Source of the DNA: Spinacia oleracea
Lineage: Eukaryota; Streptophyta; Magnoliopsida; Caryophyllales; Amaranthaceae
Assembly (NCBI RefSeq): GCF_020520425.1
Contig: NC_079492.1
Span: 140,062,361-140,126,360, forward strand
Length of the DNA: 64,000 nucleotides
Direction: 5' to 3'
Shown here: positions 48,259 through 51,171 of the stretch, piece by piece
How positions within the stretch are numbered: the stretch's first letter is position 1
Layout: each line of letters starts with the position of its first letter
Made by a program: the position numbers and the translations under genes
Notes under the pieces: model-generated
Told to the model about the DNA's origin: nothing
Databases searched by the model: none
Seen by the model: the letters and a program-made list of their open reading frames with translations, nothing else

Positions 48259-48818
48259 TTAAATCTAAATCGTAATTAATAATTTTTTTGAATGTACTCA
48301 TTTAATCATCTAATATGAAATTTTATCCCTATTACGTATTATATACTTTATATGTTGAATATGATAATTCGACTAAAGTATTCGATATGCTTAAATGTTA
48401 ATTTGACAAAAATATTGAGTAAATATATTTTTTATAATTGATATGTCGATTTGACTAAACTATTACAAAAATCTTCTAATAATGCCATATTTTATACGGA
48501 TTTTTCATGAAATATCCCTCAATTTTCACGAAATTCACCAAATGCCCTCGACAAAAATTCACCAAATGCCATTCACCTTTAATATAATACCCAAACTACC
48601 CTTACTAATGACGCGCTGTTAGTCCTCCGTTAGCCTACTTTCTAATTCACCAAATTCCCCTATATTATAACTTATTTCACCAAATACCCCTAAAGTAAAA
48701 TATAATTATTATTTCTATTTCCTCTACAATCTGCAAGTTTAGCTATCAATAGAAAATCAGTCTCAACCTTCAACGCACTACACAAGGAATCCAAATATTT
48801 TCAAGACGACATTACGTT

Positions 48819-49394
48819 TAGGGGTGTGCACGGTCCGGTCCGGACCGAAAATTGGACCGGAACCGAATCGGAATTGGACCGGACCAGACCGGACCAATAG
48901 ATTCCGGTCCGGTCCTCGGTCCATGAAAATACACGATTCCGGTTTTCCGGTCCAGTCCGGACCGGTGACCCGGAATATAATTTTAAAAATATTAATTTTA
49001 GATAGAAGAGCTCAATTCATAGCCCACATACATTAATCCCCTCCTGCAAAAAAAAAGACTTTGAGAATTTTTTGTATATCAGTGGCCTTTATCCCCTTTA
49101 AATTAAGCTTATGATGTGATGTATGCTATACTTAAAGAGAAATATAGGTCCTAAAAAGATAAAATCATAAAAAGAAATTGAGTTTAAGATTGTAAATCGC
49201 AAAAATAAAAAAAAACCCGGTCCAAGCCGGTCCAAAATCGGACCGGACCTGAATTTTCCGGTCCGGTTCCGGTCCGGACCGGATTCTTTCCGGTCCGGTC
49301 CTCGGTCCGCGAATTCTAAAAATTCCGGTCCACCAGTCCAACCGGTTCCAGTCCAGTCCGGTCCAGTCCGGTTTTGGACCTGTGCACACCCCTA
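48819..49394. mobile_element. hAT-type MITE, GC-rich ends, 8-bp target duplication
   Basis: Perfect 8-bp repeats attacgtt (48811-48818 and 49395-49402). Both ends read TAGGGGTGTGCAC, followed by dense ggtccggtccggacc words that continue as long inverted arms. At 576 bp it is non-coding. It inserted into the Pack-MULE-like element. Confidence 0.9.
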
Positions 49395-49993
49395 ATTACG
49401 TTGACCGACCTAAGAGAAAAGGAAAGAAGTAAGCATCAATAAGATAACTAACCTATTGTTCCTCTAAAATTTGGCTCAAGAAGCTTAGATCAAGGAAGGC
49501 TACATAGAGAGGTATGTACTCTGGAAGACCCACATGCACCCATCAAAATGATAAAAAGAAACCAAGTTTTTTTGTTTGGAATGCTTATCTTGCTTTATTT
49601 CCTGGACAGCTCACATGATCTAATGCAATTTCTTGTCAAGGTTACAAAGACGCGTATTTGCTGTAATTTTATCTTGGTGTTCTTTCAAGAATTATACATG
49701 TTAGTTATACTTGAGATATGTGATTTCATTCCTAATTATCGTGGATATTCATCTAAAATAATTACATTAGTTTAGTGGGGTCTTGCATCTTCATGATGTG
49801 TTATTGCTTTTAGTTTTCTCTGCAATGTATTCTTATTGTTTCACCTAGGATTTAAGAGGTTGTAATTGATTTTATAGAATTGTTTACTTAAAATCCATGC
49901 TTGCTTGATACAGGAAGAGAAAGAAGCAGATATTGGAAAATCAACTCGAATCATTAATTCTAAATCTAAACCCAATCTATCATCAAGCAGTAA

Positions 49994-50754
49994 TCAGGGA
50001 CATGGATTCTTGAGAGGTTCTGTAAAATCTGAAGTAATATGCGGATATGCCTGATAAGAAGGTCCAAATGCTAATACAGTTAACTTAGATTTATCCTCCC
50101 TTGGGCGATTCTTTATCAATTCATCTTGCTTCACCTCAATAATTTCTGCCGGTGTCTGATCCTTTCTCCTCTCACCGCCGCTGTCGAAGACATTTGCCCA
50201 GATGAAGCAGCATTGTACCAATTACTGCTAGCATAACCCTCATACCCACTTGAACTTCTTCCATAAGAATCATAATTAACATACCCTTGAATTTGATCCC
50301 CCACCAAATTCTGCTGATTACTACCAACATCAAATCCAAAACCCACTTCATTATCCACCCTATTAACCTCGGAGTTCACAAGGGCCTATGTCGGTCCCTC
50401 GGTTTCGACAATTGATCGACGCCCCGACCCCAGCGAAGGCAGAAGTGCGCCGAGGCCGGAGTTTTTCGGTATAGGCATCCTTGAAAGAAATGATTTAATA
50501 GAAACATCTTGGCCCAATTGTCGTTGCCTTTTTCTCTCTCTCTCTCTCTCTCTCTCTCTCTCTCTCTCTCTCTCTCTCTCTCTCTCTCTCTCTCTCTCTC
50601 TCTCTCTCTCTCTCTCTCTCTCCTCTTCGTCTTCTTCGTCCTCTTCATCATCGTCAACATTGGAAGGTGGGTTTGGAACAGGAGGGCAAAATTGAACAAA
50701 CCTTTTGGGATTAGGAGTAGGAAGTTCGCCAAAAACCCCTTTCTGAGAAATCAA
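49994..50754 (-). pseudogene. Captured pieces of a PRCC-like gene
   Basis: In parent order on the minus strand: ELPTPNPKRFVQFCPPVPNP, an acidic stretch, a long Arg-Glu repeat, SIKSFLSRMPIPKNSGLGA, GSGRRSIVETEGPT (all 50754-50386); then VDNEVGFGFDVGSNQQN and YGRSSSGYEGYASSNWYN (50379-50131); then KDQTPAEIIEVKQDELIKNRPR and LTVLAFGPSYQ (50221-49994). These match plant PRCC (proline-rich mitotic checkpoint regulator) homologues, especially the EVKQDEL...NRPRED segment. The reading frame changes between pieces and a stop follows EGPT, so no full protein can be made. The true C-terminus is missing. PRCC proteins are nuclear and linked to pre-mRNA splicing. This is a capture, not a working gene. 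Confidence 0.7.
50533..50622. repeat. (CT)n microsatellite inside the captured PRCC piece
   Basis: About 45 uninterrupted CT units. On the minus strand it encodes an Arg-Glu alternation directly after an Asp/Glu-rich stretch, so it probably grew from an RE-rich part of the parent coding sequence. Confidence 0.95.
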
Positions 50755-51171
50755 TTGAGGTTGAAAACCCAGTTATGGCGGTTGAATGTTGAAGAACAGG
50801 TAGCGAGAGAGAAGAAGTTTGAGAGTAGGGGCGCAAAAGAAAAATAAGGGCAAAACAGTAAAAGGCAACTAACGGCGACTTAACGTCTGTTAGGTGTAAG
50901 GGTAGTTTGGGTATTATAATAAAGGTGAGGGGCATTTGGTGAATTTTTAAAAGTCGAGGGGCATTTGGTGAATTTCGTGAAAATTGAGGGGTATTTCATG
51001 TAAAATCCAATTTTATAATATCCCATACATAAACAATTTTTACAAAAGGAGAGAAAATAAAATATTAATAAAGTAAATATATTTTTTTAGATAAGGGATT
51101 TTTGGCGGGAAAATTTGGCACCAGGAAGTGACATATGTCATTCCTGGTGTTTGTTAGTATAATGTAATAGA

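Follow-up and report, generated by a model that had tools for sequence, protein, structure and literature searches.

A spinach Pack-MULE with putative stepwise captures of host gene fragments

Structure and ends of the element

The element described here occupies positions 48497-51009 of the window, i.e., the complete 64-kb stretch of Spinacia oleracea DNA that was analyzed (C6:140062361-140126360 of the 894-Mb genome). Its terminal inverted repeats (TIRs) at 48498-48605 and 50896-51008 align in inverted orientation over 113 positions with 91.2% identity (E about 1e-37), which is above the 100 bp by which long TIRs of Mutator-like elements (MULEs) are recognized. This pair is one of the two inverted pairs in the 64-kb window that pass a filter (minimum arm length 50 nt, minimum identity 85%, E ≤ 1e-10, arms less than 6 kb apart). 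An inverted pair at 11383-11457 and 15744-15818 (75 nt, 91%, 4.3 kb apart) comprises imperfect CTGAACTTAT-like repeats. The initial annotation, made from the sequence of the window, had proposed inverted ends of about 145 bp. Inverted ends are indeed present, but the alignment gives them a length of about 113 bp, past which only a degenerate TTCACCAAATRCCCC motif is repeated onward. Including their subterminal parts, the left and right Mutator ends cover 48497-48709 and 50725-51009, respectively. The sequence ATTTTATA is found at 48489-48496 and identically at 51010-51017, an exact 8-bp target site duplication (TSD) if the element spans 48497-51009, in agreement with the 8-9 bp anticipated earlier. 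Neither a six-frame reading of 49393-50860 nor a Pfam search with four interior peptides revealed a transposase, as the initial annotation had also stated, and the longest ATG frame within the element comprises 94 codons. Judged by its ends, its TSD and the two donors located in the host genome (see below), this non-autonomous Mutator-like transposon with its two gene fragments is a Pack-MULE, which bears out the earlier suggestion of a Pack-MULE-like element. On its left, it is adjoined by a tandem array (46082-48258) with a unit of ~1,020 bp and copies that are 95-97% alike. A 51-bp stretch of this array reappears at 51172-51222, to the right of the element (86%).

The ends belong to a larger family. 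Among the nine members for which both ends are in hand, the usual terminus is CGGATTTTTCATGAAATACCCC, of which the last base is altered in the window copy, and a script check found an exact 9-bp TSD in seven of the nine (e.g., TAAATAATA, TTGAAACAA and TTGATTATT). The duplication of ~9 bp expected of MULEs is thus present at the family level. The TSD of the window copy is exact over 8 bp where its relatives have 9 bp, and no exact TSD of 7-10 bp is seen in the sister copy at C4:69700049-69712410 (hereafter C4:69.7); both points count against our main account. For the left end (48498-48709), the best 40 of 1,727 candidate places were scored. All 40 match over near full length at 90% identity or more, which together with the 1,727 first-look places indicates a large family. 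At the right end, positions 50770-50826 match about 30 other genomic places. This end is common to two elements, L047 and L048, at C6:132.94 and C2:27.83. Read inward from the right end, both encode a DNA-binding domain of the MuDR type (PF03108; E = 8.7e-6 and 1.4e-9), so that the right end of the window element corresponds to the 5' end of transposase-related elements. About 400 bp of it are shared between these two elements and the PRCC-bearing copy on C3 discussed below. At the left, about 215 bp equal the end of a 3.3-kb element (L043) with part of that transposase region. The window element thus has the appearance of a non-autonomous relative in which the two ends of a transposase-type element are retained. 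A complete autonomous element was not found: the left end is absent from the 8.4 kb taken for each of L047 and L048, and the transposase part seen in them is the N-terminal domain only. More Mutator-end matches adjoin family members elsewhere (L035:250-1763 and L039:4135-5647), hence elements with such ends sometimes cluster.

Captured fragments of two host genes

PRCC-bearing copies occur at at least six genomic places: the window, C4:69.7, C3:76324413-76326411, C2:25650229-25652465 (C2:25.65), C5:119494211-119495942 and C4:99669252 onward (C4:99.67). PRCC-like peptides had been read from the minus strand of the window in the order of a presumed parent gene. They are present, and a search of the host genome located the parent on C2, with the minus-strand segments 50724-50626, 50529-50045, 49476-49395 and 48814-48710 colinear with C2:8382618-8383999. 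A point that the initial annotation did not make is that these pieces are, by this alignment, one 1,382-bp genomic capture of part of exon 1 and part of intron 1, since the C3 copy keeps the whole stretch unbroken, with all 1,382 bp in one alignment. The parent exon 1 runs from an ATG at C2:8382345 up to CAG|GT at 8383268; the captured stretch does not include the PRCC start codon. In the window, the 3' part of exon 1 lies at 50051-50724 (C2:8382618-8383268; 83.2% and 90.2% identity gapped, 91.9% ungapped), with a frame broken by one stop and indels. Within it, a CT run at 50530-50623 is expanded and is far shorter in the C4:69.7 sister. The 5' edge of intron 1 follows at 50024-50050, where a comparison of the joint gives CAG|GC compared to CAG|GT in the parent. 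Two more intron 1 pieces lie at 49395-49476 (C2:8383782-8383891; two pieces of 96% and 89%) and 48710-48818 (C2:8383888-8383999; 88%), the latter being the innermost end of the capture, where the joint is seen. All four features are on the minus strand. Because intron sequence is present, we rejected an RNA-mediated capture.

Searching Pfam with four window peptides did not return PRCC but only low-complexity and unrelated families below the cut-off, and no family exceeded the cut-off in the parent exon 1 either. The PF10253 model reported the last exon only, and across the genome a single Pfam PRCC match was reported, which lies on the same strand 5-6 kb downstream of the captured stretch, at C2:8389252-8389395 (plus). 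The name PRCC for exon 1 follows from colinearity and from a partial tandem PRCC copy about 15 kb downstream (C2:8398063-8401491; L032:8064 to L033:1492). This copy is missing the beginning of exon 1 and contains sequence of both exon 1 and the last exon, which assigns the two exons to one gene. It was also considered as a donor and rejected, as it lacks 8382618-8382852, a stretch present in the window, C3, C2:25.65 and C4:69.7. Compared with the parent, it resembles the elements less in intron 1 (all four copies with data) and, over the exon, less in five of six, the window copy being equally similar to both (91.9% each). A single piece of C2:25.65 is matched better by the tandem copy in gapped BLAST (82.8 vs 80.0%). 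The capture may predate the tandem PRCC duplication.

In a tree of the PRCC segments, the six element copies group apart from the parent and the tandem copy with an ultrafast bootstrap of 91, as expected from a single capture, and support within the element group is low (26-81). Two of the six copies (C5 and C4:99.67) have lost the joint between MULE and PRCC or do not show it, so their descent from the same capture is read from the tree.

The window and C4:69.7 copies differ from the parental arrangement in that a piece of a gene on C1 stands in place of ~0.5 kb of PRCC intron. An exon-like piece of other origin, suspected on the plus strand at 49915-50030, turned out to be real and to be part of this second capture, which in the window covers 49470-50023 of the plus strand. 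It consists of exon and intron sequence from the minus strand of C1 (C1:125443395-125442693; 88.6% and 85.9% gapped, 94.2% and 91.4% ungapped) and is oriented opposite to PRCC. The element hence carries identifiable fragments of two host genes, PRCC on C2 and the C1 gene. No family exceeded the cut-off for the C1 donor exons, which may resemble WVD2/TPX2-type proteins. The left PRCC/C1 joint has a 7-bp overlap (TTTGGCT) and the right joint a 3-bp overlap (TGT), while microhomologies of at least 7 bp and at least 3 bp occur in 0.04% and 5.6% of random joints, respectively.

Both copies were damaged afterwards. A nested miniature element (MITE) of 576 bp, overlooked in the initial annotation, occupies 48819-49394 of the window. 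It has short inverted ends (TAGGGGTGTGCAC/GTGCACACCCCTA), an 8-bp TSD (ATTACGTT at 48811-48818 and 49395-49402) and many copies, its repeat making up 41 of the 50 genome matches listed; its likely placement in the hAT superfamily is drawn from the length of the duplication only. The C4:69.7, C3 and C2:25.65 copies have an empty site at this position, and the C4:69.7 sister has the same C1 insert without the MITE. From the C1 piece, a stretch of ~168 bp retained by C4:69.7 is missing in the window copy. In C4:69.7, an LTR retrotransposon of about 10.3 kb (C4:69700736-69711030; L009 and L010) sits in the PRCC part, with LTRs of about 1.39 kb that are 93.8% identical and TGAAC at both edges.

Alternative second captures and order of events

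Other copies contain different second genes. A Ninja/AFP gene contributed its 5' part to both C5 and C4:99.67 (donor C3:159405888-159406660; PF16136, E = 3.1e-21), and the left joint that they have in common identifies this as one event; the right end of C4:99.67 is absent from the 7 kb taken. The C2:25.65 copy contains about 315 bp from C1:62131408-62131944. With 96-97% identity to its donor, this second capture is probably the youngest. When joined by hand, the donor exons match prolyl 4-hydroxylase structures (E = 3.8e-18). The captured piece misses 213 bp, and we read the 9-bp query overlap that spans this gap as a short direct repeat rather than a splice.

We propose the following history. 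A Mutator-like element would have lost its transposase interior and gained 1.38 kb of PRCC genomic DNA in one event, with the upstream side of the captured exon placed at the end that forms the 5' end of the related transposase frame. Moved by transposase made elsewhere, the resulting Pack-MULE would have spread to six or more sites. A forerunner shared by the window and C4:69.7 copies would then have exchanged ~0.5 kb of PRCC intron for the C1 piece. Break repair inside the element, with the template jumping at short identical stretches, would best explain both capture steps. Thereafter, the window copy acquired the hAT-type MITE, a deletion in its second fragment and the CT expansion, and the C4 copy the LTR retrotransposon. 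The data show the element ends and their family, the two donors, the joints and the order in which these events took place, while the repair mechanism and the mobilization by the transposase of another element are inferred. Taken as a whole, this account of a Pack-MULE with a one-event PRCC capture, a later C1 swap by repair-copying and subsequent damage is very probably correct.

A different order is conceivable, in which one multi-template event took both PRCC and the C1 piece, and conversion with the PRCC gene as donor later restored the intron in a C3-type element. The right-hand joint between MULE and PRCC is identical in the four copies where it is seen (window, C3, C2:25.65 and C4:69.7), as one founding event would also have it. 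Conversion from the parent would however leave the regained intron stretch closer to the gene than its surroundings, whereas the stretch missing from the window is 90.6% and 89.9% like the parent in C3 and C2:25.65, respectively, which does not exceed the identity of the capture elsewhere. Moreover, no C1 match was found in the Ninja and prolyl 4-hydroxylase branches. We regard this order as very unlikely compared to the stepwise one.

The PRCC-side breakpoints of the second captures lie near 8383293 (by eye), at 8383196 (C4:99.67) and at 8383214; the further eroded C5 copy has its breakpoint at 8383170. Three breakpoints falling within 95 of the 1,382 bp have a probability of 1.4% under a uniform model, a weak, post hoc figure that takes one breakpoint per event and omits C5. 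A tentative reading, to which we give somewhat less than even credence, is that the PRCC fragment received second captures three times independently, each from a different, unlinked gene (the C1 gene, Ninja/AFP and prolyl 4-hydroxylase). One PRCC-side breakpoint of each capture lies within ~100 bp around the exon's 5' splice site, which would in that case indicate a fragile or pausing site in the element with recurrent template switching during repair. If true, stepwise capture would be a route to chimeric Pack-MULEs.

Coding state and relation to known Pack-MULEs

Frame-breaking indels are present in the PRCC segment of all six copies, and each of the six parent-element comparisons has at least one stop codon. 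With the copies projected onto the parent frame, insertions dropped and stop codons skipped, dN/dS from parent to element is 0.26-0.49 (six comparisons), and between elements it is higher (0.45-1.14; 15 pairs). We read this as decay after capture, in which constraint on the parent branch lowers the parent-element ratio. The values below 0.8 in 12 of the 15 element pairs may nonetheless reflect weak past constraint on the element copies. The window copy would now code for nothing. As for possible transcripts, the initial annotation had envisaged antisense or chimeric RNA. PRCC is oriented like the transposase frame of the related elements and adjoins, beside the transposase 5' end, the end that is expected to hold the promoter. 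For this reason, PRCC-sense RNA is predicted to be at least as likely as antisense RNA. A transcript from the right end would be PRCC-sense and contain the C1 piece in antisense.

This sense orientation inside the transposase 5' end, together with the low parent-element dN/dS and the statement in a tomato study that TIR promoters drive internal sequences of Pack-MULEs (PMC3310237), could suggest that the captured fragments are selected as a functional chimeric or regulatory gene, e.g., an RNA tuning PRCC. The indels and stops in six of six copies, the missing start codon and the higher ratios between copies argue against it. Constraint on the parent branch alone can explain the low parent-element values, and we consider such selection very improbable. 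A local inverted duplication next to PRCC-like debris, with no transposon involved, could appeal to the TSD of only 8 bp in the window, yet PRCC-bearing copies at six places, 9-bp TSDs in seven of nine members and ends shared with elements that contain transposase sequence make it extremely improbable.

The Pack-MULE reading thus places the element in a kind that is already known, and Pack-MULEs of rice were reportedly treated by Jiang et al. in 2004. Pack-MULEs of rice and other plants likewise have non-autonomous Mutator-like ends that enclose host gene fragments (PMC8903248, PMC4858842, PMC13317346). In contrast to those, the spinach family preserves the earlier one-gene state in a sister copy, and its other branches contain second fragments from different genes, which makes the order of capture readable. 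The PM-ZIBP family of tomato, also a dicot, is similarly multi-copy, with one captured gene fragment and AT-rich 9-bp duplications, but diversified via tandem TIRs (PMC3310237), whereas the spinach family did so via replacement of captured DNA. Animal Pack-TIRs, for which gap filling or FoSTeST is the explanation given (PMC8277862), share with the spinach elements the microhomology at breakpoints, the proposed template switching and multicopy chimeras with distinct duplications; here, however, it concerns a plant Mutator family with second captures within an earlier capture. We searched the open-access literature for Pack-MULEs in spinach as well as for stepwise or template-switching capture and found no report of this Pack-MULE family listed, subscription papers lying mostly outside the scope of this search. 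What sets the family apart is the preserved series from one gene to two genes, with three different second donors.

The origin of multi-gene Pack-MULEs is hard to infer from finished chimeras alone. In this family, a single genome holds an unbroken one-gene stage (C3), three different two-gene derivatives, the donors and most of the joints. Models of capture, such as gap filling, template switching and the fusion of neighboring insertions, can thereby be compared against actual breakpoints.
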